Of a stretch of 22,028 nucleotides of DNA, positions 1-19,826 are shown piece by piece. Position 1 is the first letter of the stretch, and every line of letters begins with the position of its first letter. The DNA comes from a virus: positions 1-22,028 of IMG/VR virus record IMGVR_UViG_3300046753_000083, one strand, 5' to 3'. A program made the translations under genes and the position numbers. The notes under the pieces are model-generated. The model saw nothing but the letters and a program-made list of their open reading frames with translations. It was not told the origin of the DNA and searched no databases.

Positions 1-699
1 TAAGTCTTTATCTTCTAAATTTCGCAGATACTTGTTCATCTTATCTAAAACTCCACGGTTCCTGAGTTCCTTGAAAGCAAGGTTCTCAGGTGCATATTCA
101 CCACCTTTCTCAATGGCTGTGGATCTCATTCCCTTTAGTCTGCCTTTCATTCTCTTGAAGGTTGCAATATCATCAGACTTGGAGTTGATGAGATCCATGA
201 TTGCTCTTTCTAAGTCATAGACCTTATCCTTTACGGCTTGGGAGTTTGCGTCAAATTTGACTCGCTCTGGTTGTTGGAGCCATCCATTAGACTGGAGAGA
301 ATACACTCCCTGACCCTTTTTGAAGGTATCTTCCGCACTTTGTCCATAAAGTTCGACTGGTTGTCCTTTGACTGTGATGTCATGGGTTAATGCCCATAGC
401 TGCTTCTTCGATAGCAGATAATCGTCGACCAGTCCATCACACTTAACCTGGCTCTTGTCAAGCATCAGATGGAGATCTATGTCAGAGTACTTTGTGTAGT
501 TGTAATTTGCATTACCGCCAACAATGATTACATCCTTAATTGCCTTATTAGGGATGTTGGCAAACTTTGCCCACTCTTTCGAAATTTTATTTAGAGCTTG
601 CCAAACTTCAGGATCCAGTTTCTCTCCATCCCATAACTTAGGATTAAGAGTGTCATGAGACTGAAGAGTTGTTTTTAACTCACGAAGAAGAGCTCTCAT
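1..699 (-). CDS. Pol-beta-type nucleotidyltransferase-like protein, 3' end outside window
   Basis: The frame is open from an ATG at 699 to the window edge (233 codons, no stop), so the C-terminus is missing. Residues 61-75 carry the Pol-beta superfamily signature, a GG pair followed ten residues later by D-I-D (Asp73, Asp75). Glu116 in V-E-L is a candidate third metal ligand. Known families of this fold transfer a nucleotide to a protein, small molecule or RNA end; the substrate here cannot be read. The start overlaps the upstream stop by one base (TGATG), implying coupled translation. The N-terminus M-R-A-L-L-R-E resembles the short amphipathic leaders of neighbouring proteins. The superfamily call is fairly secure; function is unknown. 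Confidence 0.75.
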   Translation of the reverse strand, partial: MRALLRELKTTLQSHDTLNPKLWDGEKLDPEVWQALNKISKEWAKFANIPNKAIKDVIIVGGNANYNYTKYSDIDLHLMLDKSQVKCDGLVDDYLLSKKQLWALTHDITVKGQPVELYGQSAEDTFKKGQGVYSLQSNGWLQQPERVKFDANSQAVKDKVYDLERAIMDLINSKSDDIATFKRMKGRLKGMRSTAIEKGGEYAPENLAFKELRNRGVLDKMNKYLRNLEDKDL

Positions 700-1328
700 C
701 AGTCAGACTCGCCAGCTCTTGCCTTGTAAGGATTGTAGTCCTTATTATTGTCTGCGTAATTCTTTGCTCTCTTTGCGGCATCTGCCTTTTTCTCTTCAGG
801 ACTCTTGGGCTTACCTGGCTTAAAAAGTACATCTTTGTACTTATCCTTCATCATCTGAAAGGCTTTATTATCAGTTTCTTTAGCTTCATCAATGAGTTTA
901 CCAAGGGCATCTTCAAAACTGAAATCTTCTAATGCCATCTTACTGGCGTTTTCAACACCAACTTTCTTTGCTTTGTCCATCTGTTCCTTAGCTCGTTTCT
1001 CTTTTTGATCAGTCATGGGCATTACATCCACATAAGGATGCTGTTTGTTCTCATCCTCTTCACCTGCTGGTGTACCTCTATGCTCAGTAATTTCTTCTCT
1101 CCAGTCAGACTTCATTCTATCATAGGCTCTGTTGACTTCCATCGCCTTGTGTTCATTATACACCATTGATGCCTTCTCCTTAGTTTTAGACTTCTGAGCC
1201 ATTTGTCTCTGTTGAGCACTTCTGACTCTCATGTCTCTCTTCATGTCAGTGCTCTGAGCTGCTTTATCAGCAGCAGACTGTTCGATGGGATCCATACCCT
1301 CAGAGAAATGTAAGTGATTGAAATCCAT
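699..1328 (-). CDS. hypothetical highly charged helical protein
   Basis: A 209-residue product that I do not recognise. It is very rich in Lys, Glu, Asp, Met and Ala and should be largely helical. No membrane segment is visible. It begins M-D-F-N-H-L-H-F-S-E, similar in style to the leaders of neighbouring proteins. The C-terminal third is a run of short basic helices rich in K/A, with Asn/Tyr/Lys repeats near the end. An NATAAATA late motif lies 17 nt upstream of the ATG, and the stop overlaps the next start by one base. Late timing plus this composition would suit a head-associated protein, but that is inference. Confidence 0.8.
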   Translation of the reverse strand: MDFNHLHFSEGMDPIEQSAADKAAQSTDMKRDMRVRSAQQRQMAQKSKTKEKASMVYNEHKAMEVNRAYDRMKSDWREEITEHRGTPAGEEDENKQHPYVDVMPMTDQKEKRAKEQMDKAKKVGVENASKMALEDFSFEDALGKLIDEAKETDNKAFQMMKDKYKDVLFKPGKPKSPEEKKADAAKRAKNYADNNKDYNPYKARAGESD

Positions 1329-1345
1329 GAAGCTTTCTTTTATGT

Positions 1346-1353
1346 TATTTATC
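1346..1353 (-). promoter_or_regulatory. T4-type late promoter motif GATAAATA
   Basis: GATAAATA on the minus strand sits in the short gap before the 1328 start. It matches the NATAAATA form of the T4-like late promoter, which is recognised by a gp55-type sigma and needs no -35 box. It overlaps the stop codon of the upstream gene. Confidence 0.55.
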
Positions 1354-2548
1354 TGCTCTCTATATGAGAGATGCCCTCATCAGTTCCATCTTCATTAGCT
1401 GTTGAATATACATTTTTAGACCATAAAGGTTCACCAAATACATCATTGAGCATACCTTCGTCTACGCCCATTGTTGTTATCTGTCTACCTGGTTGAGATG
1501 ATGCTGGCATATGATTAAGATTTCTTCTATTAACACCTGGTTTAGCACCCCAAGCATTAACTGATGCATTCATTGGATTAATATCAAGAAGTCTCTTATT
1601 CCAATCATCAGTCTCTTCAGGAGCAAGGTAAAAGTTATTTCCATCATTATACCACTTCACATATTCCATTGCTTCTTCAATTGCTGAGTCACTAACATCT
1701 CTAATATCAACATGAGTGGGATCACGTCTTTCACCTTTATCTGTAAAAACTCTATTGTATTTTGCTTGTGAAACCAGATGAGCCATCATATCAATTGGTT
1801 TAGCATCACCATATTGATATGAATTTGAAGGATACCTTGATTGGTGCTGCCTCACCATCTGATTGAAGATTCCACCTTTATTATCCTGAAGATGTTCCAT
1901 GAAAGCTTCAAACTCATCAGGAAAAGCCTCTTTGAGTTCATCAGGTTTAAGAAATGGATTGTCTCCTCTCTGACTCACCTGATCAAGTAATCTATTTTGT
2001 GACATTGTGCCACCACCAACCAATTCTTTCAAATCAAAGTTGCCACCATTACTTCTACGTGATCCTAGTCCATAAGACATAAGATATGCTCTGGCAGCAG
2101 GATTATCACTGATGATATCAATAAATCTGTTTCTTCCGTCTTCCGTGTTTAAGTAATTATAATCACTTGTGAATAAATCTTTATTATCACTACCATTCAT
2201 CAACATCTTTCTAAATGATCCACGTGAACCAACTTGACTGTTGGCACTATTCACTTTAACAGGTACAGATGGATCTTTAGTTGCCTTTACAGAATATCCT
2301 CTGCTATTATTACCTTGCCTTTGAATGATATCTGTTTTTAATGTATTACTATCACCAAGTTGTTCAAATGTTGAATTTGGATTTATCTTCTGAAGCAGTT
2401 CTAATGTTCTGTCTTCAGCCATTGTGCCAAAGCCGCCATCATTGTGCCTATTAAACCTACCTTGTCCTTGTTGTCTTTGGTTGGCAAACGGTTCTTCGTT
2501 TATTTGTCGGTTTATTCTTGAAAAATCAATCATAGTATTGTACATCAT
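1349..2548 (-). CDS. hypothetical protein with possible PD-(D/E)XK-like signature
   Basis: A 399-residue protein with no confident family assignment. Residues 44-52 form a Glu-containing helix. It is followed by K-T-D-I-I (Asp73) and then Y-S-V-K (Lys88), the spacing of a PD-(D/E)XK nuclease core with Ser in place of the usual D/E before x-K. This is suggestive only. The rest is rich in Asn, Gly and Ser and contains no membrane segment. Starts are possible at 2548 (ATG ATG, 23 nt overlap with the upstream gene) or at 2533 (ATG, 8 nt overlap). The latter gives M-I-D-F-S-R-I-N-R-Q-I-N-E, which resembles a capsid-targeting leader. Neither start has a clear Shine-Dalgarno. Confidence 0.75.
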   Translation of the reverse strand: MMYNTMIDFSRINRQINEEPFANQRQQGQGRFNRHNDGGFGTMAEDRTLELLQKINPNSTFEQLGDSNTLKTDIIQRQGNNSRGYSVKATKDPSVPVKVNSANSQVGSRGSFRKMLMNGSDNKDLFTSDYNYLNTEDGRNRFIDIISDNPAARAYLMSYGLGSRRSNGGNFDLKELVGGGTMSQNRLLDQVSQRGDNPFLKPDELKEAFPDEFEAFMEHLQDNKGGIFNQMVRQHQSRYPSNSYQYGDAKPIDMMAHLVSQAKYNRVFTDKGERRDPTHVDIRDVSDSAIEEAMEYVKWYNDGNNFYLAPEETDDWNKRLLDINPMNASVNAWGAKPGVNRRNLNHMPASSQPGRQITTMGVDEGMLNDVFGEPLWSKNVYSTANEDGTDEGISHIESR

Positions 2549-3359
2549 GAATAAAGTTCTTAAACATTATCTCATCCTCTGTCACACAGATAAGGTGATT
2601 GGTACCACATCTGTGTACTCTTCCAATCAAACCTGATGAGAGAGACTCTACAATGTCACCAACCTGATATAAGTCACCATCACGATACATCTCTCTGATT
2701 AGTTCCTGGTTATATCTTGGTGCTACTTCCCAATCCTCATTCTTCTGTCCATACATCTGAAGAGCAGCAAATAGTCTCTTTGCTACATCTCCATTTTTAG
2801 GGAAGTTTTCCATAAATCCCTGACTATCTCCAGATTGAACCATTCTCCTCAATTTGGAGGCAGAGAGGTTCATAATAGGATCGTCAGAGTCCTCATCTCT
2901 CTCGCCAGCTGAGTGTGAATAGATGTTATCAAAATCATATAAGTTACCATTATACTTTCTCAACAAATCTTCCATACCTTGTTGTCTATCAGCACCACCT
3001 ACAAAGTGAAAGTTCTTATAACCTTCCTGATGAGCCTTTGTTGCTGAACCAAGAATGGTTCTCACACCCTCATCATCGTCCCACTTCTCAGCATGATCTG
3101 GAAATAATTCCTTTAGGAATCCAAGTTTAGCCTGGAATGGCAATGGATTCTTCTTAGGATCTTGTGATCTGGATGTATAAAACTTCTGATCTGCATTCTC
3201 ATTCTGAGCAATATCATTTGCCATGTTAAACGTGGCACCATGACCCATATGAGGTGGGTTGTGACGCCCAAACACCTCAACCACAGAGTCATTCATCCTC
3301 TTAGGTTTCAGTGCTTCTTGTGCGCCACCCGCTTGTTCGTAAAAGGATCTAAAACCCAT
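2526..3359 (-). CDS. HxGH-type nucleotidyltransferase-like protein with KOW-like tail
   Basis: 277 residues. The N-terminal half carries the nucleotidylyltransferase signature of the NMNAT/PPAT/cytidylyltransferase superfamily: V-E-V-F-G-R-H-N-P-P-H-M-G-H at 27-40, with His37 and His40 as the HxGH pair. F-V-G-G-A-D-R follows at 119-125 and a late L-S-A-S-K-L-R-R at 165-172 corresponds to the ISxSxxR-type motif. These enzymes join a nucleotide to a phosphorylated substrate; NAD salvage is one option, but the substrate cannot be assigned. Residues 231-273 form a compact beta-rich segment (Y-Q-V-G-D-I-V-E..., then L-I-C-V-T-E-D) that looks KOW/SH3-like. A late motif precedes the gene. The start M-G-F-R-S-F-Y-E resembles neighbouring leaders. 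Confidence 0.82.
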   Translation of the reverse strand: MGFRSFYEQAGGAQEALKPKRMNDSVVEVFGRHNPPHMGHGATFNMANDIAQNENADQKFYTSRSQDPKKNPLPFQAKLGFLKELFPDHAEKWDDDEGVRTILGSATKAHQEGYKNFHFVGGADRQQGMEDLLRKYNGNLYDFDNIYSHSAGERDEDSDDPIMNLSASKLRRMVQSGDSQGFMENFPKNGDVAKRLFAALQMYGQKNEDWEVAPRYNQELIREMYRDGDLYQVGDIVESLSSGLIGRVHRCGTNHLICVTEDEIMFKNFIHDVQYYD

Positions 3360-3378: not shown

Positions 3379-3386
3379 TATTTATT
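3379..3386 (-). promoter_or_regulatory. T4-type late promoter motif AATAAATA
   Basis: AATAAATA on the minus strand lies 19 nt upstream of the ATG at 3359 and matches NATAAATA. It overlaps the TAA stop of the preceding methyltransferase gene, so late transcription would start between the methyltransferases and the nucleotidyltransferase block. Confidence 0.55.
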
Positions 3387-4143
3387 ATTCAAAGAAAGAG
3401 ATAAGATTTGATGAACCTACTATTGAGCACTCATTGAACTTATCCTTGTCACGCTTTGAGATGTTGGTAATACGTTCTGTTGCTTCTTCAATGTATTTCT
3501 CAGATACATCAAATCCAATGTAATCATGTCCAAGTAGCTTTGCTGCAACACCTGATGTACCTGAACCATTATAAGGATCAAAGATGAGTCCAGGTTCTTG
3601 TAACACAGACTGGATACACCTGACTGGCAACTGAAGAGGATAGGGTGCAGGGTGATCATTCTTCAAGTCAGCACCAAACTTCCAGATAGAAGTATAGTTG
3701 GCACATTCACGTGGCAGACGTGGATGCTTCTTACCTTTACACAACCAGTAGATACGTTCATCTTGTTGAATGAACCTGTAACCTGAAATCTCAGGACCTG
3801 AACCTCTTGCCCAGATAATCTCCTCTCTGATGTGCCAGTATGTCTGCGTAAGCCACTGCCATGGTGAGATGGCTCCACCTTCAAAGTATCTTACCTTGTG
3901 GTTATAGAACAGAGAACCACCATCAACAGTCTTCTGATAGAGGGTATTCAGTAATTCAATCTGTTGATTCTGATAATCCTCTTCAGGTAGAGTGTCATCA
4001 AAGGTGTCATAATTGATTTTACGAAACAAACCACCACCCACACCACACTTGTTATAAGGTGGTGAGGTGACAGTTACATTGATAGAATTATCATCTAGAT
4101 CTTTAGCAAGTTCAACACAATTACCAAGACGTAAATCAATCAT
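3385..4143 (-). CDS. DNA methyltransferase, beta-class SPPY type (third of three)
   Basis: A 252-residue SAM-dependent DNA methyltransferase. Catalytic motif IV (T-S-P-P-Y, SPPY at 27-30) precedes the SAM-binding motif I region (D-P-Y-N-G-S-G-T-S-G at 189-198), the motif order of beta-class enzymes. SPPY is typical of N4-cytosine enzymes, but N6-adenine beta enzymes also exist, so the modified base is not certain. The segment between the motifs would hold the target recognition region. The ATG overlaps the upstream methyltransferase stop by one base (TGATG). No restriction endonuclease is visible nearby, so it is likely an orphan enzyme protecting phage DNA. Confidence 0.92.
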   Translation of the reverse strand: MIDLRLGNCVELAKDLDDNSINVTVTSPPYNKCGVGGGLFRKINYDTFDDTLPEEDYQNQQIELLNTLYQKTVDGGSLFYNHKVRYFEGGAISPWQWLTQTYWHIREEIIWARGSGPEISGYRFIQQDERIYWLCKGKKHPRLPRECANYTSIWKFGADLKNDHPAPYPLQLPVRCIQSVLQEPGLIFDPYNGSGTSGVAAKLLGHDYIGFDVSEKYIEEATERITNISKRDKDKFNECSIVGSSNLISFFE

Positions 4144-4931
4144 CAGAGGAGATTTGCCAGAGTATTATCATAACGCTGAATGCGCTCAGTTGCCATATCT
4201 ACGTATTCTTGATGCATTTCACAACCAACATAAGCACGATTATGAGTCACAGCAGAGACACCAGTGGTGCCAGAGCCAGAGAAAGGATCTAGAACAGTAT
4301 CACCAACAAATGAGTAATACTTTACGACTCTATCAGTCAGAGCAAGTGGATAAGGTGCTGTATGCTTTGATGCAGTCTCAGGATTGAATTGCCATACGTT
4401 TGAACGCTCATAACCATCAGCCACAAGAGACTGATCAAGAACATCACCTTTGTACTTTTTGAGTACATCAGAGACTTTACAAGTGGGCTTCTGCATCACC
4501 AGAATAGCCTCTGAGATGGTGTTGGGCTTATACATCACAGGCTTACGCAACTGAAAGAATGCACCATTACGATTAGGTGCTGCACCTTCAGGCTTAACCC
4601 ACTGAATATCATCAATGTATTTGAAGCCAACCTTCTCACAAAGATTGAAGATGTGGAATGGAATGGGCCAGCGAGTAGAGTCTTCTTTACTAGGCTTCTC
4701 TGGTGCTGAGATGACAGGTGATGAATTCACAATGAACATTCTGCCATCATCTAGAAGACGATAGACTTCAGAGAAGACTGACTCTAGAAAGTTCAGATAG
4801 TCTTCATACGTGGGCCATGTGGCGTATTCACGAGCATTATAATAAGGTGGTGAGGTGACAGCCATGTGAATACTCTTCTCATCAAGAGTCTTCATCATAT
4901 CTACACAATCACCATGTAAGATTTGAAACAT
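4143..4931 (-). CDS. DNA methyltransferase, beta-class SPPY type (second of three)
   Basis: 262 residues. T-S-P-P-Y-Y-N gives motif IV (SPPY 27-30), and V-L-D-P-F-S-G-S-G-T-T-G gives the SAM-binding motif I (DPFSGSGTTG at 215-224), followed by the G-C-E motif II region. The layout is that of the downstream enzyme, but the middle region is clearly different, so the recognition sequences probably differ. Transcription could begin at an extended -10 element just upstream (4954-4962). Its stop is coupled to the next methyltransferase start. As with its neighbours, the base methylated (N4-C or N6-A) is inferred from motifs only. Confidence 0.93.
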   Translation of the reverse strand: MFQILHGDCVDMMKTLDEKSIHMAVTSPPYYNAREYATWPTYEDYLNFLESVFSEVYRLLDDGRMFIVNSSPVISAPEKPSKEDSTRWPIPFHIFNLCEKVGFKYIDDIQWVKPEGAAPNRNGAFFQLRKPVMYKPNTISEAILVMQKPTCKVSDVLKKYKGDVLDQSLVADGYERSNVWQFNPETASKHTAPYPLALTDRVVKYYSFVGDTVLDPFSGSGTTGVSAVTHNRAYVGCEMHQEYVDMATERIQRYDNTLANLL

Positions 4932-4953
4932 AGTTACTTTGATTTACTCTTTT

Positions 4954-4962
4954 ATTATATCA
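4954..4962 (-). promoter_or_regulatory. extended -10 promoter candidate (TGATATAAT)
   Basis: Minus-strand TGATATAAT is an exact extended -10 (TGNTATAAT) 22 nt upstream of the second methyltransferase. No good -35 is visible at 16-18 nt. The flanking block (GGTTGAT ... AGTAAA) is repeated upstream of the first methyltransferase at about 5833-5860, suggesting shared control. Confidence 0.5.
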
Positions 4963-4964
4963 CA

Positions 4965-5819
4965 TCAACCAAAATCTAGACGACCACGATTCATGTGTTC
5001 ACCATTGATTTTCAAACACAACTCATGGAAGGTAGGATCAATCTCAAATCCAATGAAGTTTCTATCTACATCAAATGCTTGACGAGCTGTAGTACCTGAA
5101 CCCATGAATGGATCTAGAACCAAATCACCTTCTTTACTGTAGGTTTTGATAAGATCTAGAGCTAAACCAGGAGGCATCAGAGCAGGATGCTCATAGCAAT
5201 CACGATTGGTGTGAGTATTAGTATACGTCCAGATGTTAGTACGTACACCAAACTCAGGTGTGAGATAAGTTTTCTTATCTTTGCTTCTACCAACACGCTC
5301 ACCAGTGGTTTTACGTCCACCACCTTTCACATAAGCTTTACCAGCACCTTTGTTGGGCTTATCAACTAGGAGAGTGGTGGTATTGGGACGACCTTTAGAG
5401 AGAATGAAACAATACTCATAGATGTTGGAGTGACGTAATGATTTCACACCAGCAGCAAAGCGAGCAGCTGGTTTTGCATAGAGAAGGTTATCATGTAGAT
5501 TCAAACCTTGATCCATGAAGTACAAGCACTGACGAAAGGATGTACCTGTTTGAGAAGTACCATCCTCTTTCTTCTTACCATGAAGATTCACTACAGCATC
5601 AGCAACATTCCATGCAATCACACCACCAGGCTTCAGAGTACGAATCAAACCATCAGCAACCTGCTTGAATACATCAAAGTTCCAAGTGGATGAATCATTG
5701 TAAGTACGTAGATTATCATAAGGAGGAGATGTAACAACTAAATCTACAGATTCAGCATCCATCTTCATCATACCATCAATGTTGGACATCAGATGGACTG
5801 TATTGATATCTAAGCTCAT
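4965..5819 (-). CDS. DNA methyltransferase, beta-class SPPY type (first of three)
   Basis: 284 residues. Motif IV is T-S-P-P-Y-D-N (SPPY 31-34); motif I is L-D-P-F-M-G-S-G-T-T-A (DPFMGSGTTA at 236-245), followed by F-I-G-F-E-I-D. The central 150-195 region is basic and Gly/Lys-rich and may contact DNA as a target recognition segment. It is the first transcribed of three adjacent, divergent methyltransferase genes and has its own extended -10 promoter in the 37 nt gap upstream. The class call rests on motif order; the modified base and target site cannot be read from sequence alone. Confidence 0.93.
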   Translation of the reverse strand: MSLDINTVHLMSNIDGMMKMDAESVDLVVTSPPYDNLRTYNDSSTWNFDVFKQVADGLIRTLKPGGVIAWNVADAVVNLHGKKKEDGTSQTGTSFRQCLYFMDQGLNLHDNLLYAKPAARFAAGVKSLRHSNIYEYCFILSKGRPNTTTLLVDKPNKGAGKAYVKGGGRKTTGERVGRSKDKKTYLTPEFGVRTNIWTYTNTHTNRDCYEHPALMPPGLALDLIKTYSKEGDLVLDPFMGSGTTARQAFDVDRNFIGFEIDPTFHELCLKINGEHMNRGRLDFG

Positions 5820-5856: not shown

Positions 5857-8403
5857 TCAACCTAAAAAGAAATAAGGACTAAATTCATTGCCCATCTTCA
5901 TTGCTTTACGATAGATTTTTCTCTTTGAGAATTCTTCAAGTTTACCTTTTGACTCAAGTTCTTGAAGCAATTTTACATACCTTAATTGTCTTACTTTGTT
6001 TCTAATAATAGCTCTAATGTTGACACCTGGTGTTCCACCCATCATCTCATCAGCTTCAGCTTTCTGCTCATCAGTAAAATTTAAATCATATGGATTTACA
6101 TTTCTATCTGTTGATCTTACTGGACTTTCAGGACGAAAATCTTGCATCTTATTATCAACTTCCATAAGCTTATCAATGAAGCTTGGAATATCTTCAATTC
6201 CTTTAGGTAATCTAGTTTTAAGTTTGAAATTACCATCATAATCTTGAACAGATTGGGCTAATTCTTTGATTTTATTAACCTCTTCTTCTGTGAATCTTCG
6301 TGCTAACTTTGCTTTCTTATTCTCAGAACCATCATTATTCATTTTTGGATCAATACCCAACATATTCTGAAGTCCACCAAATCTATCAGCGAATGATTCC
6401 AGAATTGGATTACCTTCTTCATCCATCATATCATTACCTTCTTCGTCCATTTTACCATATCCCAACATTTCAGTTACTTCTGGATCTGAAAACCAATCTT
6501 GAGGAATTGTACCCGCCTTTGCTCCACTTCCTTTAATTTTGCCTTCAAATTTTGCATTACCAGCAAAATCAAATGGTGTATTTTTATTTGCATTACCAGA
6601 GTGAATGATAGCTGGAATTTCAAAATCTGTATCATATGCATCATCTTTCATTTTCCATGCTAATGTAAATGCATCAGTAAGATCTGCAATATTATCCGCA
6701 TCTGTTCCCCATCTTTGTGAAGCAGAATCTGAATCCGTAATCAAATCCATTGTTGCATCATCAACCTTTTTATTATCTTCTTCATTACTCACATTACGAG
6801 TGAGAGCGTGAACTCCATTCTTACCAGGTTTTTTGAGTGAGATGTTGAATAATTTCTTAGCAATAATAGCATCACGTTTGATTTGCGCGACTGCCTTCAT
6901 CATCTTCTCTTTGTCACCATCCATCTGAAAATCTTCAACTGCATCTTGAAGTTTTTCTTGAATTTCTTCTGCTGCTCCCTGTGCCATCAAAACAACATCA
7001 GTTGGATCGTGGTGTTCAATAAAATTACCACTATCCATTCCCATCATCTCAAGTAATGATTCAGATCCAACATTATCAATTAATGCTTTGTTCAAAGAAT
7101 CGTAAGTGTGATTTCTAGCTTCTTCAGGTATATCAGTCATTCTCATGCCATCATTACCACCATCAGCTTTTGAAATACTGTAGGTTTCATTTAAATCAAG
7201 ATGAGGAAGTAATGATTGAACCATTTGTGCAGCTGCAGCTTCCCATTTCTTATTCAAACCACCTTTAGGAAGATGATCAGAAATGTGATCACTAAATGCT
7301 TGCACCTGTTCACGATATTCTTCAGGAATATCCTTTTCCTTCTTTCCAACATATTGTAGGATATCTGTATTGTAATCACCATTCAATACAGAGTATAATC
7401 CTTGCATGAATGCTGTTTCACCTATCAAATCAGTTTCATTTGCACCTTGAGACCATCTTATATCAGCATCTCTTTCATCTGGTTTTCTCTTTTTTGATCG
7501 TGATGTATTTGAAAGTGTTCTGGGTATTGAACTTGGTTCAGATGGAGGTGATGGTTTTGCGATTTGTGGAAATTCTTCATCCTTTTTGATATCTTTAATC
7601 ACTTTTGATATTACAGGTTTATTGATTGCTTCTTCACCACCAGCAGCATCAACTGCATCACTCATTCGTTGTGCTGTAGATTTTTTTTTAGATCCACCAC
7701 CTTCTTCCTCACCAGGAGGATTTGGACTTACTTGCAATTCACCTCTCATCTGAGCAAATGTCTTTCCTAATTTGGGTAATATACCCATCTTATCACGCAT
7801 TTCAGCATTATCACCAACTCCCTCTGCCATTCCAGGCAGTTCCATGTTTGGACCTTGATCTACAGTTCCACCAGAACCAATAGGATTAATACCAGAAGCA
7901 GGTGCTGCCTGCATTGGATTGTTTACATTATGAGTTGCATTTATTTGTTGATTTGCATTATACATCCTCATCTTAGTCTGATTCATAAACGAATCATAAC
8001 CAGCAGGTGCTGCTGCAGGAATTGCATCAGGAACTGCACCCTTCTCAAAGGGTGATTCAGGATGAGATGGTGGTGTGATTGCCAAACCTGTCATTGGATC
8101 ACTCCAAGTTGGTTTTGCATTCACTAAGTCAGAACCACCTGACCCATCAGATACTGCACCACCACTCATTCCTCTATTATCATAGAAGACTAGTTCACCA
8201 TTTACAGTGGCAGCAACCTTCTGTCCAGTCTCTGGATCAATATAACCACCACTACCATCAGATTGTAAACCTAGTTGTCTTGCTCTCTCAGCAGGAGAAG
8301 AACCAACAGCAGGATTACCAGTATCTAATGCTTCTTTTACAAAGTTACCAAGAAACTTAGGCTTCTCTTGCTCTCCTCTACTCCAGTTACTCCAGCGCGA
8401 CAT
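5857..8403 (-). CDS. large hypothetical protein, possible PD-(D/E)XK-like core, shares N-terminal module with the kinase-like protein
   Basis: 848 residues, no confident family. Residues 42-74 (G-L-Q...G-G-Y-I-D-P-E-T-G...T-V-N-G-E-L-V) match residues 18-50 of the kinase-like protein two genes upstream, a shared domain. Residues 80-310 are low-complexity (Gly/Pro/Ser/Asn, then basic) and probably disordered. The middle contains H-D-P-T-D-V-V-L (465-471), then a long helical stretch and I-S-L-K-K (521-525). This is reminiscent of PD-(D/E)XK folds in which x-K closes the active site, but the spacing is long and the call weak. The C-terminal half is acidic and helical. The N-terminus (F-L-G-N-F-V-K-E-A at 17-25) resembles a capsid-targeting leader. 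A virion-associated protein is plausible; the function is unknown. Confidence 0.8.
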   Translation of the reverse strand: MSRWSNWSRGEQEKPKFLGNFVKEALDTGNPAVGSSPAERARQLGLQSDGSGGYIDPETGQKVAATVNGELVFYDNRGMSGGAVSDGSGGSDLVNAKPTWSDPMTGLAITPPSHPESPFEKGAVPDAIPAAAPAGYDSFMNQTKMRMYNANQQINATHNVNNPMQAAPASGINPIGSGGTVDQGPNMELPGMAEGVGDNAEMRDKMGILPKLGKTFAQMRGELQVSPNPPGEEEGGGSKKKSTAQRMSDAVDAAGGEEAINKPVISKVIKDIKKDEEFPQIAKPSPPSEPSSIPRTLSNTSRSKKRKPDERDADIRWSQGANETDLIGETAFMQGLYSVLNGDYNTDILQYVGKKEKDIPEEYREQVQAFSDHISDHLPKGGLNKKWEAAAAQMVQSLLPHLDLNETYSISKADGGNDGMRMTDIPEEARNHTYDSLNKALIDNVGSESLLEMMGMDSGNFIEHHDPTDVVLMAQGAAEEIQEKLQDAVEDFQMDGDKEKMMKAVAQIKRDAIIAKKLFNISLKKPGKNGVHALTRNVSNEEDNKKVDDATMDLITDSDSASQRWGTDADNIADLTDAFTLAWKMKDDAYDTDFEIPAIIHSGNANKNTPFDFAGNAKFEGKIKGSGAKAGTIPQDWFSDPEVTEMLGYGKMDEEGNDMMDEEGNPILESFADRFGGLQNMLGIDPKMNNDGSENKKAKLARRFTEEEVNKIKELAQSVQDYDGNFKLKTRLPKGIEDIPSFIDKLMEVDNKMQDFRPESPVRSTDRNVNPYDLNFTDEQKAEADEMMGGTPGVNIRAIIRNKVRQLRYVKLLQELESKGKLEEFSKRKIYRKAMKMGNEFSPYFFLG

Positions 8404-8429: not shown

Positions 8430-8663
8430 TCAGATGTAAGCGGCAGCAATCTTAGCGTTCTTAGAGACATCACCATCTTTAGCAAGTTTGAATGCTTTCT
8501 CAAGCAACTCATTTGCTGCTTCCTTATCTGTCTTACGCAACTGCTTATACTCACCCATCATGGTAATGTACTTCTTATCATCAGCACCTTCACCATCTTT
8601 GACAGTGTGAGCTTTCTTCTTCTCATCTTTCTTCTCAGAGAGGAAGTTGTTTAGATCTTTCAT
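8430..8663 (-). CDS. small charged helical protein with capsid-targeting-like N-terminus
   Basis: 77 residues, no recognised family. The N-terminus M-K-D-L-N-N-F-L-S-E followed by a run of Lys/Asp/Glu closely resembles T4 capsid-targeting peptides (short amphipathic segment ending L-x-E, the gp21 protease cleavage pattern). The remainder is one or two long helices rich in Lys, Ala and Glu, as in packaged internal proteins. A good Shine-Dalgarno (AGGAG, 5 nt spacing) precedes the ATG, and a strong sigma70-like promoter lies at 8686-8714. It is placed between the two large proteins that share an N-terminal module. Confidence 0.78.
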   Translation of the reverse strand: MKDLNNFLSEKKDEKKKAHTVKDGEGADDKKYITMMGEYKQLRKTDKEAANELLEKAFKLAKDGDVSKNAKIAAAYI

Positions 8664-8685: not shown

Positions 8686-8714
8686 ATTGTATCATAGTTA
8701 GTCATCAGGGTCAA
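8686..8714 (-). promoter_or_regulatory. sigma70-like promoter (TTGACC-N17-TACAAT, with TG extension)
   Basis: The -35 TTGACC (8709-8714) and -10 TACAAT (8686-8691) are separated by exactly 17 nt, each one base off consensus, with TGA directly before the -10. The -35 lies within the end of the kinase-like gene. It would drive the 77-residue gene and possibly the following genes early or middle in infection. Confidence 0.6.
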
Positions 8715-10923
8715 TACCCATTGCTTTACGAATCTTGCCTGATGCTCCTGTACCTATCTGTCCTTTACCTCTCATTCTATTGATAAGACTATCAACTCTA
8801 CTTCTATTGCCCATCAAACCACCAGGTGTAGGTTCTTCTCTTGCTGCATCTTCAGGATACTCTGTATCCCACAACCCATCATAGAGTTCAGCAAGTCTTT
8901 CTTTTACAAAATCACCATCTCCTAGGTTAGGAAATACACTTGTAATCTTCTCTAATTCTTCCCTATCCATTCTGATATTACCACCCATCACACTGGAGAG
9001 AACTGATAAAGCGTTGTCATATCCTTCTTCATCATCCATATCACCTTCAAAAGAATCCATTATTCTCTCTTCAAATGCTGATCTTCTCTCAGTGATTCTA
9101 TCCATAATCTCCTGAGGTAGGTTAGAACCTGAAACTTGATGAGCAAGTTGATAGTCATTACCTTCTTCAAAGTCTAGTCCACCCAATGCTTCCATAAGAG
9201 CAGAGGTAGGATTATCATCAGCAAGTCCTAAGTCAAGGATTGAAACCTCACCTGTCTCAGGATCCACCATGATGTTACCACCATGCATATCATTGTGAGA
9301 GAAACCTGCCTTATGGAGTTCACCTCTTGCTTCCCAGAAACTCTTCAATGCTTTCTCTTGGATGTCAGGAGTCAAATCATTCCATACACTTGCAAGTTGT
9401 TCACCACCAGCAACACTCATTGCGTACTTACCCCAAGCACCAGGGAATCTCTTATCCCATGTTTGTGCTGTCTTAGGATCAAAGTAGTTTCCATCTGCAC
9501 CCCTTCTCATGTTTGAGTTGTCACCAGGATTATTATAAGCAGCAGATTGATTGATGAAAGGTCCATCAAATCTTGCATTGATAAGAGTAGGAAAGTGAGG
9601 ATTATCTTTCATTGCATACAGAGCTGCAAGTTCACCAGGTCCAATGTTTCCTGTCTTCACACCCACACCATCATCACCTAATGTGAATGAACCAAAAGCA
9701 CCTGAGGCAAGTGGACTTCTATCATCATACTGATCCAAATCAAAATCTGCATCCTGTACCAGTTCTCTTGCTGATGCATTGAGTCCTAATACATTCTCTT
9801 CATCAGTATCTTGAACCTTAGGAGTTCCTCCACCTAACCAACTTGGTGGTTCTGGTGAATCATCATCATAAGGGTACGAATCGTATCTAGAATCTTGATT
9901 TATCTTTCCATCAGAATCACGGTATTCATTGCTGCCAGTTCCACCTGCTAAATCCTGATCCTTCATCCATTTCAGACCTCTCTGATAGGCACCAGGACTT
10001 TGTGTATCCTTCTTTCTTCTAGCATTGAGTGCTCTAATAATTTGCCTGTCAAGAGGAAATTCTGGTTCAATACCTTTGTCAAATAAATCATCTGCTATCT
10101 TCTTAGCAGGTGCCTTTCTTTGTTTATCTTTATTATTTTTATTTAATCTTTTTGCTCTATCTGCTTTTTGTTGTGTGTTTAGAGGTACAAAATCACTACC
10201 AAGTCCTTGATCATCTTCAGTTGATGAAGATGAAGTAGGTGGTGTAACACCAGCATTGTTAGCAACTCTCTTAAGATAACTTTTCAGCCATGCTGAACCT
10301 CTACCTTGTGCAAACATTACATCATTTTTTGTTTCAGTACCTGGATTAGAGTTGTTGCCGTCAGCAAAATCTCTCACATTCTTAATGTGTTGCTTTCTAT
10401 CTCTATTGAACTCTGCTTCACTAATCCACTGCCGCATCTCACCCAGTTCCATGGCATTATCGCCATCTGGACCTGCTGTCCATCTTGCTGAGTTAGTTTT
10501 ACCAACAAACATGTCTTGAGGTAGTTCCTCAGTTGGCTGTCCATCAACACAAGTATCGCCATCAGGACCTGCTTCCCAACCTTTCTTCTCAGTAGGTCTT
10601 TGTGCTTGTCCCATTGCAGGTCCAATGTTCTCACCAGAACCTACAGGTGGCGCTACTGGTGCGCCAGCAGCTGCACCACCTGGTACTGCCATCTGTCCAC
10701 CAGCACCTGATTTAGTAGGTCCTTCATCTTCTCCATCACCCTTATACAACTCAGATTCAACATCACCTTCTACAGGCACCAGTTGATCGTTTACAGTCTT
10801 ATATTTTGCTTCACCAGTCTGTGGATCTGCCCAGTATCCAAACCCTTTATACTGTAAGCCCATTGCTACAGCATCTCTATGAGCCTTCTCTCCTTTACGT
10901 TCTAGAAACTGTTGTAGTCTCAT
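8698..10923 (-). CDS. large protein with protein-kinase-like domain
   Basis: 741 residues. Residues 400-590 carry a full kinase-like motif order: Gly-rich loop L-A-S-G-A-F-G-S-F-T-L (405-415), V-K-T-G with Lys423, a helix C candidate Glu431, catalytic loop H-N-D-M-H-G-G-N (543-550) and metal-binding D-L-G (564-566) in place of DFG. HxDxHxxN with DLG is closer to RIO/ABC1/LPS-kinase-like families than to classic Ser/Thr kinases. It could phosphorylate host or virion proteins, or another substrate. N-terminal residues 18-50 share a module with the 848-residue protein, and W-x-A-G-P-D-G-D occurs twice (116-123, 148-155). Residues 60-110 and 225-275 are low complexity. M-R-L-Q-Q-F-L-E is a capsid-targeting-like start. 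The start overlaps the upstream stop (ATGA). Confidence 0.85.
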   Translation of the reverse strand: MRLQQFLERKGEKAHRDAVAMGLQYKGFGYWADPQTGEAKYKTVNDQLVPVEGDVESELYKGDGEDEGPTKSGAGGQMAVPGGAAAGAPVAPPVGSGENIGPAMGQAQRPTEKKGWEAGPDGDTCVDGQPTEELPQDMFVGKTNSARWTAGPDGDNAMELGEMRQWISEAEFNRDRKQHIKNVRDFADGNNSNPGTETKNDVMFAQGRGSAWLKSYLKRVANNAGVTPPTSSSSTEDDQGLGSDFVPLNTQQKADRAKRLNKNNKDKQRKAPAKKIADDLFDKGIEPEFPLDRQIIRALNARRKKDTQSPGAYQRGLKWMKDQDLAGGTGSNEYRDSDGKINQDSRYDSYPYDDDSPEPPSWLGGGTPKVQDTDEENVLGLNASARELVQDADFDLDQYDDRSPLASGAFGSFTLGDDGVGVKTGNIGPGELAALYAMKDNPHFPTLINARFDGPFINQSAAYNNPGDNSNMRRGADGNYFDPKTAQTWDKRFPGAWGKYAMSVAGGEQLASVWNDLTPDIQEKALKSFWEARGELHKAGFSHNDMHGGNIMVDPETGEVSILDLGLADDNPTSALMEALGGLDFEEGNDYQLAHQVSGSNLPQEIMDRITERRSAFEERIMDSFEGDMDDEEGYDNALSVLSSVMGGNIRMDREELEKITSVFPNLGDGDFVKERLAELYDGLWDTEYPEDAAREEPTPGGLMGNRSRVDSLINRMRGKGQIGTGASGKIRKAMGIDPDD

Positions 10924-11186
10924 TCGCCATCACCAGAATCGTTATTACCTTGCTCCTCATAAGCATAAGGTGCACCATTCTGTCCATGTGAACCTAACAC
11001 ATTATAACCAGGTCCATTATCAGGCTTTCTGTCTTTACTATTATGTGCACCTACATCATCCTTAGCGGATTTAGGGACGCACATCATTTGTTTCTTATCC
11101 CACCTGTAACCATTTGGGCAGGAGGGTTTATCATTCACTGTGAAAGGTGACTCTACAAGAGACTCTAACCACTCGCTATAGTTCAT
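10920..11186 (-). CDS. small Cys-pair protein, hypothetical, possible packaged protein
   Basis: 88 residues, unknown function. It begins M-N-Y-S-E-W-L-E-S-L-V-E-S, an amphipathic leader with L-V-E fitting the T4-type prohead protease site. It then has a motif C-P-N-G-Y-R-W-D ... C-V-P-K (Cys23, Cys36) that might form a disulfide or small metal knuckle. The tail is polar, Gly/Asn-rich and probably disordered. The stop overlaps the kinase-like gene start by 4 nt (ATGA), so the two are translationally coupled. A late promoter motif lies 18 nt upstream of the ATG. Confidence 0.78.
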   Translation of the reverse strand: MNYSEWLESLVESPFTVNDKPSCPNGYRWDKKQMMCVPKSAKDDVGAHNSKDRKPDNGPGYNVLGSHGQNGAPYAYEEQGNNDSGDGE

Positions 11187-11204: not shown

Positions 11205-11212
11205 TATTTATT
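11205..11212 (-). promoter_or_regulatory. T4-type late promoter motif AATAAATA
   Basis: Minus-strand AATAAATA lies 18 nt upstream of the ATG at 11186 and matches NATAAATA. It overlaps the TAA stop of the upstream gene. It would place the Cys-pair protein and the kinase-like gene in a late transcript. Confidence 0.55.
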
Positions 11213-12404
11213 ACCAAGTTTTAGGTACAGTAAAATTCAAACGTGAGAACTCTAGTCTATCAATGAGTTTTACTGCTGACTTACCTGAAATTGCAACGAA
11301 TCCTTCGGGGGTGGTGACTTCATAATCACCAGAGGATGTAGCAACAAAGAGATTGAGTCTTGAAATCTTCTTCATCTTATCTACAAGAATGTTCTTTGCA
11401 ACTGCCAGATTCATGTAGGTTGCAATCAACATCTTGAATTGATTTTGCATCTTCTGATAGTTGTCAAGATGTTCAAGTAACTCTGCCATCTTCCTATCTT
11501 GAGACTTCTGAGTCTTTAACTTGTCAATCTGTTTCTTATACTCTTTCTCAAGATGTTTGGAGAAATCTGTGTATGCTTTCTCAACTGATGGTATTGACTG
11601 TCCTGCCTTCACATAGTTGTTGAAGAACTTCTTGAACTCAGTATCAATCTGTAACGTCCTCTTACCAGATTGAATAAAGTCAAGTACTCCTTTTGTTTGC
11701 TTTGCTGAACCTTCTGCCTTGTTCACTGCTGCATTGTATTTCTGAAGTTCACCTGAAGTAAAACTTGCTGCATTACCAATGTTCTTGAACTCTGCTTTCT
11801 GGATCCATACACCATTACTTGCTTTGAAATCACTATCTTTCACATTGAAACTTGATGTCATTGTAGGTAATGAATCACCATTGTATTTGGTGTGAAATAC
11901 AATACCAAGTTGAGCAGCAGAAATCTCTCTCTCCATCTTGCTTCCTACCTTTGCTGCGTAGGTGATGGTGTTAGGGCGGAAGGTTGTGTACCTCTCACCC
12001 TGAATTGTCTCTGTCTTCTTATCATCAGTGAACATCAAGTCACCTTGTAGAACTCCTTTGATTCCACACTCTTTGAGTAGATTATAAGAAGCAATCAACT
12101 TCTGTGCAAGAGCTCCACTGTATAGCTTATTAACATCTTCTACTGATTTACAAATCTTAGGATCGTTCTTATTGAATACTGACTTAGTACCAACAAAGAA
12201 TTTCCCATCTGCTGGATCAATACCACACACAACTGCGGGTGCACCATCCCACTTGGTGGTGACAGAGACACCAGCACCAGTATCTCCTGAGAGCATCTTA
12301 CCCATCTCTCTCAAGATGCTGATTGCTTGTTGAGCACCAGCAGTTCCCTTATTGATGATCTCATCCTCAATATGTTCGAGATGTGTGTTCTTACCAGCAG
12401 CCAT
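11211..12404 (-). CDS. KxDG-motif nucleotidyltransferase (ATP-dependent ligase-like) protein
   Basis: 397 residues. T-T-K-W-D-G-A-P-A holds the covalent nucleotidyltransferase motif I (Lys51-W-D-Gly54). Q-G-D-L-M-F (120-125) fits motif III, L-G-I-V-F (166-170) motif IIIa, E-G-F-V-A (367-371) motif IV and V-K-L-I-D (378-382) motif V. This is the order of DNA/RNA ligases and capping enzymes. A 185-residue insertion with a Lys-rich coiled-coil (about 275-325) separates IIIa from IV, so this is not a standard ligase. Proteins with a K-W-D-G-A-P-A core recur in T4-like cyanophages, usually as uncharacterised proteins. The ATG has a Shine-Dalgarno (GGGAG, 5 nt spacing). The ligation substrate is unknown. 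Confidence 0.8.
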   Translation of the reverse strand: MAAGKNTHLEHIEDEIINKGTAGAQQAISILREMGKMLSGDTGAGVSVTTKWDGAPAVVCGIDPADGKFFVGTKSVFNKNDPKICKSVEDVNKLYSGALAQKLIASYNLLKECGIKGVLQGDLMFTDDKKTETIQGERYTTFRPNTITYAAKVGSKMEREISAAQLGIVFHTKYNGDSLPTMTSSFNVKDSDFKASNGVWIQKAEFKNIGNAASFTSGELQKYNAAVNKAEGSAKQTKGVLDFIQSGKRTLQIDTEFKKFFNNYVKAGQSIPSVEKAYTDFSKHLEKEYKKQIDKLKTQKSQDRKMAELLEHLDNYQKMQNQFKMLIATYMNLAVAKNILVDKMKKISRLNLFVATSSGDYEVTTPEGFVAISGKSAVKLIDRLEFSRLNFTVPKTW

Positions 12405-16522: not shown

Positions 16523-16680
16523 GGGTTGCAGCAGAGAGTAATAAGTTCGTAGTTGTTGAGGGATTCAAGATGTTTGCGATATTCATCTGGATCCCAATCT
16601 GGGTTGCCTTCACAATCAACCTGTACAGATTCGTCAATGATTTCTTTTCTCCTTTCTTTTGTAAGAAAATAATTTATCAT
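16519..16680 (-). CDS. conserved-type small protein between gp43 and uvsX (53 residues)
   Basis: The ORF runs from an ATG at 16680 to a TGA at 16519. It fits exactly between gp43C and uvsX with 4 nt ATGA overlaps on both sides. It starts M-I-N-Y-F-L-T-K-E-R-R-K-E, then has an acidic middle with D-W-D-P-D-E-Y and ends in T-L-C-C-N-P. No known fold is visible. It is too short for most length cut-offs, but the perfect coupling at both ends makes it almost certainly a gene. A role in replication or recombination is suggested by position only. Confidence 0.8.
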   Translation of the reverse strand: MINYFLTKERRKEIIDESVQVDCEGNPDWDPDEYRKHLESLNNYELITLCCNP

Positions 16681-17840
16681 GTGAAAAAATCAAATAGGGT
16701 TGCGGTTTTTTCTGATTGCCATCCAATGGTATCCAGAATAACCTGGAGTGGATCAATGAATGACTTTTGAAACATTGTATCATAATCCAAGAACTTATGT
16801 AAATCAAACTCAGGTGGTAATTCAGTAATGAATGACATAATGTTACCACCAGTTGGATTAGGAACTCTGAGGAAGACGAATCTAATCTTCTCACCATCTT
16901 GAATGATGTTGTACTTATTAGTCAGTTGATTCTGTCTCAGGAGGTGGTTGAACATGATACAACCTCTGATGTGAATGGGACATCCTTTCTTATACAGAGT
17001 AGAGACATCCATAAACTTAGAGATGTTATTACCTGTTCTTGGAAAGGCAATTACTTCAGGTGGTAGAGATTCAAACTCCTTACGTTTAGAAGCAACATAC
17101 TCAATGAGTTCCTCCTCTGTACCTTCCATAATAATCTTGAGAGACTCTTTGATGTAAGCACGACAAGGCTTAGGTGTTGAGGACTTGACAGCCTCAATAC
17201 CCATCATCTTGAGCTTAGGTTCCTCATACCTAACACCCTCATTGTCCCATACATTCAGGATGTATCGCTTCTTAGCAGTCCAGATACCACGTTCAGCAAT
17301 ACACTCTCGCTTCATCACGAGAGTCTCTTCATAACAGTTCAGGTAGTCAGAGAGCTCTTTGTATGACTCATCAATGAATGGTTCAATCTTATCCTGACAG
17401 AACTTGTTTAGAATGTCGACAGTTCTTTCGCTTGGTAAGCTACCGTTGGATGCAGCCCTATCCACAAGACTCCCAAGATTAAGGTAGATACTATCAGTAT
17501 CCGAAGCAACAACATAATCTGTATCCTTAGTACCCAACATCTTATTTACATACTCATTGAGCTTACGTTCAATCCAACGAATAGCAACCTGTCCTGTACA
17601 TGTGATAGCCTCAGCATTCTCAAGACGATAGTGCCTGAAGTAGTTGTTACCAATTGCTCCATACAACGAATTCAAACAGATCTTTCGCACCATCTGGAAG
17701 TTACTGAACTTAGTTACATCCTTCACAGTCTGAGCATGAAGTTCTAGTAGTTGTTCATTAGAGAGGTGAGATAAGTCTTTACCTGACTTTACAATCTCTT
17801 CTTGTGCTTCTTCACCAGCACCACCGATTAAATATCCCAC
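16677..17840 (-). CDS. 43B: DNA polymerase gp43, C-terminal fragment of a split gene (motifs B and C, thumb)
   Basis: A 387-residue C-terminal half of a family B polymerase. Motif B R-K-I-C-L-N-S-L-Y-G is at 52-61 and motif C S-D-T-D-S-I-Y at 113-119 (Asp114, Asp116 catalytic), then the thumb. The C-terminus ends T-L-F-D-F-F-T, matching the T4 clamp-binding tail. It starts at a GTG that shares its G with the TAG stop of the N-terminal half (TAGTG). A Shine-Dalgarno GAGAGG sits 9 nt upstream at 17850-17855, so it is translated as a separate chain. The first 45 residues replace part of the fingers region. Together with gp43N it should form one polymerase. Confidence 0.93.
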   Translation of the reverse strand: MGYLIGGAGEEAQEEIVKSGKDLSHLSNEQLLELHAQTVKDVTKFSNFQMVRKICLNSLYGAIGNNYFRHYRLENAEAITCTGQVAIRWIERKLNEYVNKMLGTKDTDYVVASDTDSIYLNLGSLVDRAASNGSLPSERTVDILNKFCQDKIEPFIDESYKELSDYLNCYEETLVMKRECIAERGIWTAKKRYILNVWDNEGVRYEEPKLKMMGIEAVKSSTPKPCRAYIKESLKIIMEGTEEELIEYVASKRKEFESLPPEVIAFPRTGNNISKFMDVSTLYKKGCPIHIRGCIMFNHLLRQNQLTNKYNIIQDGEKIRFVFLRVPNPTGGNIMSFITELPPEFDLHKFLDYDTMFQKSFIDPLQVILDTIGWQSEKTATLFDFFT

Positions 17841-19346: not shown

Positions 19347-19826
19347 ATGTATTCTATCTATCTCATACATTGTATCACAACTGGTAAGAAATATGTAGGG
19401 CAAACCAAAGGAAAGGTTGAGAATAGGGTACAACAACATTTCAACAAGAATACACCTACTCACTCACGTAGCCCACGCTTGTATCAAGCAATGGAGAAGT
19501 ATGGTAGAGAGAACTTCATTTGGGGTTTAGTAGAGCAGTGTGATGAGAGCTTAGCAAATGAGAGAGAATGCGATATAATAAGAGAATACGCTACATTTTC
19601 TCACGGATACAACTCTACTATTGGTGGTTCTACATTCAAAAAGCACTCACCTGAGACTAAAGCAAAGATGAGTGCTACTTGGAAATCAAAAGGTACTTCA
19701 AACCGTAAAGGTAAGAAGAATAGTGAGGAAAGTAATGCAAAAAGAAGGGCGACAATGCTTGCCAGAAAGGAGGCAGGACTTTATTGTGGTCGCCCTAAAG
19801 GTTCAATACCTTGGAATAAGAAATAA
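19347..19826 (+). CDS. GIY-YIG homing endonuclease with NUMOD3-type motifs
   Basis: A 159-residue free-standing homing endonuclease of the Seg/Mob type. The GIY-YIG core is seen as S-I-Y (3-5) and Y-V-G-Q-T (16-20), with Arg27 and His31 in N-R-V-Q-Q-H and a later acidic E-R-E-C-D with the G-Y-N-S-T-I-G-G segment. After residue 88, repeated K-K-H-S-P-E-T-K-A-K-M-S and G-K-K-N-S-E-E-S-N-A-K-R blocks are NUMOD3-type DNA-binding modules. It is the only plus-strand gene here, inserted between the operon genes and the split polymerase. No good Shine-Dalgarno is seen. Such genes spread by cutting endonuclease-free alleles of nearby genes, so gp43 is the likely target (inference). Confidence 0.93.
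   Translation: MYSIYLIHCITTGKKYVGQTKGKVENRVQQHFNKNTPTHSRSPRLYQAMEKYGRENFIWGLVEQCDESLANERECDIIREYATFSHGYNSTIGGSTFKKHSPETKAKMSATWKSKGTSNRKGKKNSEESNAKRRATMLARKEAGLYCGRPKGSIPWNKK

Follow-up and report, generated by a model that had tools for sequence, protein, structure and literature searches.

The 22,028-nucleotide stretch analysed here (the window), viral record IMGVR_UViG_3300046753_000083, is part of the genome of a T4-like cyanophage whose closest isolate relatives are S-CRM01, S-CREM2, S-N03, S-H34 and S-B68. It contains a run of genes, among them those for a Pol-beta-type nucleotidyltransferase, an HxGH-type adenylyltransferase and a kinase-like protein, which probably form a block of enzymes that are packaged in the phage head and injected with the DNA. 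In the mechanism that we propose, these three enzymes and the small proteins nearby would be drawn into the prohead core by N-terminal tags of T4 type, the tags would be trimmed after a glutamate by a gp21-type protease, and the enzymes, on being injected with the DNA, could act before any phage gene expression. Packaging in the window phage itself, as well as late synthesis, cleavage and injection, is what we infer. The genes with which the argument is mainly concerned are the following.

1-699, minus strand: Pol-beta-type nucleotidyltransferase, 233 amino acids (aa) in the window, the 3' end of the gene lying beyond the window edge
2526-3359, minus strand: HxGH (HIGH-superfamily) adenylyltransferase with a C-terminal barrel (phrog_395, AlphaFold model and fold searches)
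5857-8403, minus strand: 848-aa protein, its N-terminal part like the virion protein gp12 of S-CREM2 (44% over 151 aa)
8430-8663, minus strand: 77-aa protein, counterpart gp13 (S-CREM2 comparison)
8698-10923, minus strand: kinase-like protein (HNDMHGGN..DLG, by eye), counterpart gp14; PF00069 at 4.7e-5 and PF01636 at 1.1e-4, both below their cut-offs
10920-11186, minus strand: 88-aa protein with a CxxGYxWDxxxxxC module, counterpart gp15 (S-CREM2 comparison)
11211-12404, minus strand: DUF6267 protein (PF19782 at 1.4e-123; fold), KxDG RNA-ligase-like, without a tag in the window phage

The clearest evidence for packaging is provided by S-CREM2, whose virions were the subject of a mass-spectrometry study (Table 3 of PMC10665884). 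When 25 open reading frames (ORFs) of the window were compared with the 219 S-CREM2 proteins, a counterpart (E<=1e-4) was found for 18 of them. All six counterparts of the block (Pol-beta, HxGH, 848-aa, 77-aa, kinase and 88-aa proteins) are detected in the virion, the Pol-beta protein matching gp156 (66%) and the HxGH protein gp154; the unique peptides reported for this set of S-CREM2 proteins number 3 for gp154, 5 for gp155, 6 for gp156, 21 for the kinase gp14, 28 for gp12, 1 for gp13 and 4 for gp15 (PMC10665884). Outside the block only one of 12 counterparts is detected, that of a 274-aa protein at 21202 whose match to gp160 covers 30 residues only, and none of the remaining 11 (DUF6267, glutaredoxin, MazG, gp41, UvsX, both polymerase parts, three small proteins and Hsp20) appears in the S-CREM2 virion table. 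Fisher's test of block versus others gives 3.8e-4 with the gp160 match counted outside the block and 8e-5 without that match, values to be read in the knowledge that the block boundaries were drawn after the detection result had been seen. Relatives of the HxGH protein have likewise been reported as virion proteins in S-SCSM1 (PMC9602691) and S-SZBM1 (PMC9146016), and for the virions of S-CRM01 there is the work of Dreher et al. 2011 (as cited in PMC10665884). S-CREM2 also possesses a homologue of the T4 protease gp21 (39% identity over 169 residues), which is listed in its virion table; the corresponding gene would lie beyond the window fragment.

These results bear on the sequence-only reading of the same DNA, which had proposed a single programme of nucleotide attachment at some stage of infection. 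Virion presence in S-CREM2 does link the HxGH, Pol-beta and kinase proteins and suggests DNA entry as their stage, whereas the DUF6267 counterpart, gp87, is absent from the virion table.

How these proteins would reach the head is suggested by their N-termini. In the capsid-targeting sequence of T4, residues 4 and 7 drive targeting while residues 8 and 10 serve processing (PMC9026906). Several relatives, HxGH and kinase proteins among them, start with a sequence of this type, which has an aromatic residue or Leu at position 4, F at 7, a hydrophobic residue at 8 and E at 10. The S-CREM2 proteins begin MKNFSSFLTEA (HxGH), MKRFDAFLTEE (the kinase gp14), MKDLHSFLTEQ (the 77-aa family) and MKDFDSFLEEF (an S-adenosylmethionine hydrolase), and those of S-CRM01 MKLFNQFFKEA, MKKLDQFLTEK and MISFDQFLSEK, so that in the relatives from both phages the N-termini are alike although the proteins behind them differ; T4 internal proteins II and III (IPII and IPIII) start MKTYQEFIAEA. 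Among HxGH relatives the tags include MKNFSSFLTEA, MKGFSNFLIEA and MKLFNQFFKEA, as well as the exact MKSFLQFLKEA of S-SCSM1 and the MRFRQFIIEA of S-SZBM1, which is one residue shorter. A strict T4-like motif is found in five of the 219 S-CREM2 proteins (gp6, gp13, gp14, gp136 and gp154, exact at T4 positions 4, 7, 8 and 10), all five of them virion-detected, compared with 0/24 structural and 0/167 undetected proteins. In T4 it selects 3/565 ORFs, namely IPII, IPIII and gp61.1, leaving IPI and Alt unmatched, and in S-SCSM1 2/803, the virion-detected HxGH protein and an unflagged 106-aa protein. The T4 protein gp61.1 (54 aa, L101:18966-19130), which starts MKTFKEFIKED, is a good match to the targeting sequence.

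Over the viral loci collected, which include near-copies and were counted after rows with identical first 25 residues had been merged, the strict motif occurs in 7/36 HxGH, 8/65 Pol-beta and 5/45 DUF6267 proteins versus 11/858 other ORFs; with a relaxed motif the counts are 10/36, 25/65 and 17/45 versus 58/858. Two of the 11 control matches are relatives of the block kinase, and two of the six others scanned have enzyme domains: a RimK-like ATP-grasp protein (L037:1703-2701, MEKFKSFITEE) and a protein resembling haloacid dehalogenase (HAD) phosphatases (L030:10170-10775, MKSFNTFLVEA; below the Pfam cut-off).

The N-termini of the window proteins themselves follow this pattern to differing degrees.

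679-699, minus strand: propeptide-like N-terminus of the Pol-beta protein, MRALLRE, 7 residues (lineage comparison)
3330-3359, minus strand: tag of the HxGH protein, MGFRSFYEQA, a shortened T4-type variant with no strict-motif match
8332-8352, minus strand: internal tag-like stretch of the 848-aa protein, LGNFVKE (by eye; compare FASFMAEA in gp12 and LDSFIKEA in S-CRM01)
8634-8663, minus strand: exact T4-type tag of the 77-aa protein, MKDLNNFLSE, matching positions 4, 7, 8 and 10
10894-10923, minus strand: tag-like N-terminus of the kinase, MRLQQFLERK, a variant (N-terminus comparison)
11157-11186, minus strand: tag-like N-terminus of the 88-aa protein, MNYSEWLESL (relatives MNFSEFLEAI and MNFTEFLKAT)

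For the Pol-beta protein, L-[LIF]-x-E directly precedes the start of the conserved domain in 7/7 lineage members compared, where two N-termini (L016 and L002) were trimmed to this motif, there being an inner ATG in L016 and an annotated start further upstream in S-CRM01. Fuller tags, such as MHNFSEFIAE and MKNFKSFLTE, are carried by distant Pol-beta relatives.

As the sequence-only reading held, Pol-beta-type and HxGH-type nucleotidyltransferases do lie within 3.4 kb and a kinase-like protein is indeed encoded nearby; the third type that it placed in the same region, KxDG, is present as DUF6267, 7.9 kb from the HxGH gene and so outside the first 3,359 positions. That reading also named lost catalytic residues in homologues as the outcome that would speak for structural roles, and none was lost: the Pol-beta G..DxD..E residues G61, D73, D75 and E116 are invariant in 71/71 distinct relatives aligned, the HxGH residues G31, P35, G39, H40, S166 and R171 (GxxxPx(H/T)xGH plus S....R) in 44/44, and K51, D53, G54, E367, G368 and K379 of DUF6267 in 63/63, and the three enzymes thus look catalytically intact. 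The observation goes beyond chance, relatives being present in 528 (HxGH), 45 (Pol-beta) and 468 (DUF6267) of 50,697 phage records (duplicate records counted).

What the HxGH protein might act upon is best approached from its fold. The protein, with the motif GRHNPPHMGH, matches phrog_395 ('cytidyltransferase') at 1.3e-64; PF01467 is matched by 23/26 rows of the family alignment, while the Pfam scan of the window copy itself gave no PF01467 match, and motif position 37, the first H, is T in 35 and H in 9 of 44 relatives. Its AlphaFold model (predicted local distance difference test, pLDDT, 84.5) displays the HIGH-superfamily fold. In the VIA comparison the top match is phosphopantetheine adenylyltransferase (PPAT, CoaD; 6b7a, Z 14.2, 152 residues, root-mean-square deviation 2.7), with adenylyltransferases of nicotinamide and nicotinic acid mononucleotide (NMN and NaMN; the enzymes NMNAT and NaMNAT) at Z up to 12.9, whereas Foldseek ranks the NaMN adenylyltransferases (NadD) first at E 1.7e-4; identity in these structure matches is 7-18%. 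The phage family shares with these enzymes the fold and the GRxxPxxxGH and S....R residues, which are invariant within the family, and differs from them in its additional N-terminal tag and C-terminal barrel. Because the fold is nearest to PPAT and NMNAT, a small-molecule acceptor appears the likeliest for the HxGH protein. The structure-based search for closest substrates has thus led to small-molecule enzymes and DUF6267 resembles RNA ligases, so that the single programme of the sequence-only reading, taken as the attachment of nucleotides to host or phage macromolecules, is not supported. The picture that we tentatively favour, the most likely of those considered though still short of an even chance, is that the HxGH acceptor would be a small phosphate-bearing cofactor or precursor, NMN-like or phosphopantetheine-like, and that the Pol-beta and kinase proteins would modify host components or undo an early host defence.

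A more specific proposal makes the HxGH protein an NMN adenylyltransferase that sustains NAD+, whether to counter NAD-depleting defences or to serve phage metabolism. It is so annotated in S-SCSM1 and discussed by the authors of that work (PMC9602691), and the Foldseek and VIA matches to NadD and to the NMN/NaMN enzymes are consistent with it, as is NadR among the weak sequence matches (E 0.17); set against this, PPAT scores higher by VIA, and we consider the proposal possible but on balance doubtful. NadV is the standard phage partner in NAD salvage. It was found in 0/6 related genomes, while the control for the search was positive in 6/14, the window fragment being outside this search.

The Pol-beta protein is a member of a separate phage family, phrog_36119 (3.5e-91), with a conserved LNPKLWD start; its likeness to the MNT group and the wider Pol-beta superfamily consists in the G..DxD..E active-site pattern. 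The window copy reaches PF01909 (NTP_transf_2) at E=0.0046 and 17.8 bits, below the 21-bit cut-off, and 9/12 rows of the family alignment match at E<=0.01, the best at 5.7e-4, while a PDB sequence search returned weak MNT matches (8xeh, E 0.65). Attachment of nucleotides to proteins may be a role of this enzyme. At least 588 of the 600 pattern-matched stretches listed encode a Pol-beta relative. The full-length protein, of 299 aa, is encoded in contig L005 (8001-8900), which is 100% identical to the window over the Pol-beta gene, matches it identically over the three genes compared and extends past the left end of the window; there it has a C-terminal CxxGxxW module and a Gly-rich tail that are absent from the other 10 proteins of our alignment A2. 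A likeness to T4 nrdC.11 was dropped when no match was found. A Cyanobium metagenome-assembled genome contig (L194:1285-2235) encodes a Pol-beta relative (33%) that may be host-borne; by eye, it follows a signal-peptide-like N-terminus and adjoins a gene resembling dapB.

The third enzyme, DUF6267, has the KxDG motif KWDGAP, and, judged by eye, its E367, G368 and K379 would correspond to motifs IV and V of the ligases. In the VIA comparison of its model (pLDDT 84.3), Naegleria RNA ligase comes first at a modest Z of 7.8, and RNA and DNA ligases occupy almost all of the 50 rows. Foldseek gave no match with E below 0.001 for the same model, the profile did not match T4 Rnl2 or the DNA ligase gp30, and the PDB sequence search returned chance matches only; since these sequence comparisons found nothing, the case for a ligase is one of motif and fold. 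The likeness to the KxDG RNA ligases (Naegleria Rnl, T4 Rnl1 and Rnl2) lies in the KxDG and EG..K residues and the top structure matches, and a short form of DUF6267 without about 110 profile positions (a helical insert) is unlike those enzymes. Many relatives carry tag-like N-terminal extensions, for example MKFNQFITEAKEDKN and MLSFKQYLNEDKN; sorted by N-terminus, the 63 rows comprise 20 that are tag-like, 20 with another extension and 23 with none, and on a tree of these rows, in which SCREM2, L004 and L105 have long end branches, the well-supported branches require at least four changes of the label 'no extension'; the start codon assumed was that of the longest ORF, and the labels may thus err both ways. 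No paper was found in a literature search for DUF6267.

Gene neighbourhoods do not bear out the joint Pol-beta and HxGH programme of the sequence-only reading: the two are neighbours in 8/93 Pol-beta loci (some of which are one contig twice), all of a single lineage, and an obligate pair was dropped for that reason. The wider pair across phages is HxGH with DUF6267, an HxGH gene being present in 51/83 DUF6267 loci and within 656 bases downstream in 40, and many of these loci are short, so that a missing HxGH gene there says little. One could thus suppose that DUF6267 and HxGH form a functional pair for nucleic-acid end repair, with Pol-beta an unrelated neighbour that adjoins HxGH in this lineage only; the co-occurrence, the RNA ligases at the top of the structure list and the fact that phrog_455 spans both domains are consistent with this. 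The fusion suggested by phrog_455 was rejected, as no ORF in the examined loci has both domains, and the two genes are 7.9 kb apart in the window. With the modest Z of the ligase match and gp87 missing from the S-CREM2 virion table counting further against it, and since enzymes with PPAT or NMNAT folds are not known to repair RNA, we regard such a pair as somewhat unlikely.

Several observations weigh against the packaging of the block by T4-type tags. The S-CREM2 authors themselves allow for contamination of virion preparations (PMC10665884), RegA is among the proteins that the S-SCSM1 record marks as belonging to the virion, and the presence of the Pol-beta protein in virions rests on one phage, S-CREM2. 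The motif was defined after the N-termini of S-CRM01, S-N03, S-CAM3 and S-CREM2 had been seen. Its wider versions perform less well in S-CREM2, where a middle form has 7 matches with 6 detected and a loose form 17 with just 6 detected, and the virion-detected gp15, gp155 and gp156 are missed by the strict and the middle form alike, gp156 starting MKKLISEL with no T4-type match. Nearly all of the 45 S-SCSM1 virion proteins are without the motif, and within the window only the 77-aa protein has it in strict form, the N-termini of the HxGH, kinase, Pol-beta and 88-aa proteins being variants. A separate tag profile, for which DUF6267 and T4 tags were the training set, placed gp154, gp14 and gp13 at the top of the 219 S-CREM2 proteins, followed by the undetected gp54 and then gp6, while the strict-motif protein gp136 was not among its first 25. 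Nor did its scores distinguish the 28 non-structural virion proteins, most of which are supposed to be tail proteins, from the rest (p=0.12). Applied to the window, it scored the gp41 helicase (6.8) and UvsX (4.6) above every block protein, and the -1.3 of the HxGH protein is reached by 37.7% of the comparison S-CREM2 proteins. Because the profile did not single out the window block, our confidence in packaging was slightly lowered.

Taken together, such points could mean that abundant enzymes of the infected cell simply co-purify with virions, as the S-CREM2 authors allow and the flagged RegA illustrates, and that the likeness of the N-termini is that of an ordinary amphipathic helix, in keeping with the helix at residues 3-16 of the HxGH model and the weak tags of the window. 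Co-purification would, however, hardly explain why 11 of the 12 other window counterparts, replication, nucleotide-pool, heat-shock and small proteins among them, go undetected, nor why all five strict-motif proteins of S-CREM2 are detected, and the agreement of these five at T4 positions 4, 7, 8 and 10 goes beyond a mere helix; we therefore judge this explanation unlikely, and head packaging remains the reading that we prefer. An extended version of it, in which the RNA-ligase-like KxDG protein (tagged in many relatives), the Pol-beta protein adding nucleotides onto RNA ends and the HxGH protein would make up an injected nucleic-acid or nucleotide repair kit, directed to the head by an exchangeable ten-residue tag and mending cut tRNA or drained cofactors before the first phage transcript in marine and freshwater T4-like phages, is a good deal more speculative and distinctly improbable. 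That HxGH enzymes make nucleoside diphosphate (NDP) sugars for glycan synthesis, as has been proposed for some cyanophage HIGH enzymes (PMC7824862), which may be of another family, is very improbable, given that no glycosyltransferase is annotated beside the S-CREM2 or S-N03 HxGH gene (the other ORFs of the window were not scanned) and that a biosynthetic role is ill-suited to virion packaging.

The closest precedent for such a block is the set of T4 internal head proteins (IPI, IPII, IPIII and Alt), with which the tags of several relatives share like residues at positions 4, 7, 8 and 10; the parallel extends to the gp21-type protease of S-CREM2, to the presence of the relatives in virions and to Alt, also a head-packaged enzyme (PMC9026906). 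The differences are that the cargo here would consist of nucleotidyltransferases and a kinase and that the HxGH and Pol-beta tags of the window are shortened or altered. That NMNAT-like proteins and kinases occur in virions is already published: those of S-CREM2, S-SCSM1 and S-SZBM1 (PMC10665884, PMC9602691, PMC9146016) include relatives of the window HxGH protein and, in S-CREM2, also of the kinase, and the authors of the S-CREM2 and S-SCSM1 studies proposed a possible entry of such proteins into the host along with the DNA (PMC10665884, PMC9602691). In the passages of the three papers that were examined no targeting signal is named, and the S-CREM2 Pol-beta protein is listed as 'hypothetical'. 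The T4 review, which suggests that targeting sequences let T4-like phages pack varied proteins (PMC9026906), was the single paper that a literature search on capsid targeting and cyanophages returned, and no paper connecting the cyanophage proteins with the targeting sequence of T4 was found in this or the other searches. Within the literature searched, what appears to be new is the T4-type tag common to several of these proteins and the Pol-beta virion member. If the packaging reading is correct, part of the injected enzymes of T4-like cyanophages, common viruses of oceans and lakes, would be predictable from their first ten residues, 'hypothetical' proteins such as the Pol-beta family would be candidates for effectors that act in the first minutes after infection, and the internal-protein strategy of T4 (Alt and the IPs) would extend to nucleotidyltransferases and kinases, with the origin and exchange of the tag open to testing.

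Other features within and around the block are given below.

699-1328, minus strand: 209-aa protein with WREE..HPYVDVMP in common with S-CREM2 gp155 (one-against-one comparison)
1349-2548, minus strand: 399-aa protein with no relative in the Pfam, PHROG, S-CREM2 or locus comparisons
2538-2660, minus strand: C-terminal beta-barrel module (SH3/KOW-like) of the HxGH protein (strands in the model)
8176-8274, minus strand: small module of the 848-aa protein (GGYIDPETG), also in the kinase (profile seed)
10765-10863, minus strand: the shared small module in the kinase (GFGYWADPQTG; profile seed)

The match between the 209-aa protein and gp155 is weak (29/98 identical, E 1e-6 one-against-one) and was missed at 1e-4 in the proteome search. 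A profile of the HxGH barrel, seeded with the window copy and three others, finds the non-seed gp154 of S-CREM2 at E 3.2e-23, and ten long marine HxGH relatives carry DUF5824 (8) or HNH_3 (2) at E<=0.01, some under the curated cut-off. The profile of the small module finds gp12, likewise not a seed, at E 1e-15. The virion-detected gp12 (L097:7704-10313), which has about 150 N-terminal residues in common with the 848-aa protein of the window, is annotated as Cas9, despite which no Pfam domain was found in it at E<=0.05.

Between the HxGH and 848-aa genes lie three methyltransferase-like ORFs in a row (3385-5819; TSPPY motifs, by eye), none with a counterpart among the 219 S-CREM2 proteins at E<=1e-4. 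From DUF6267 to the small heat-shock protein, the genes of the window lie in the same order as in the freshwater T4-like cyanophage S-CRM01. The DNA polymerase gene (16677-19282) consists of two ORFs overlapping by one base; it is also split in S-CREM2, where a small gene separates gp40 from gp42, while the S-CRM01 annotation has a single gene. Immediately upstream of the polymerase gene, on the plus strand, is a GIY-YIG-like ORF (19347-19826; motif by eye).

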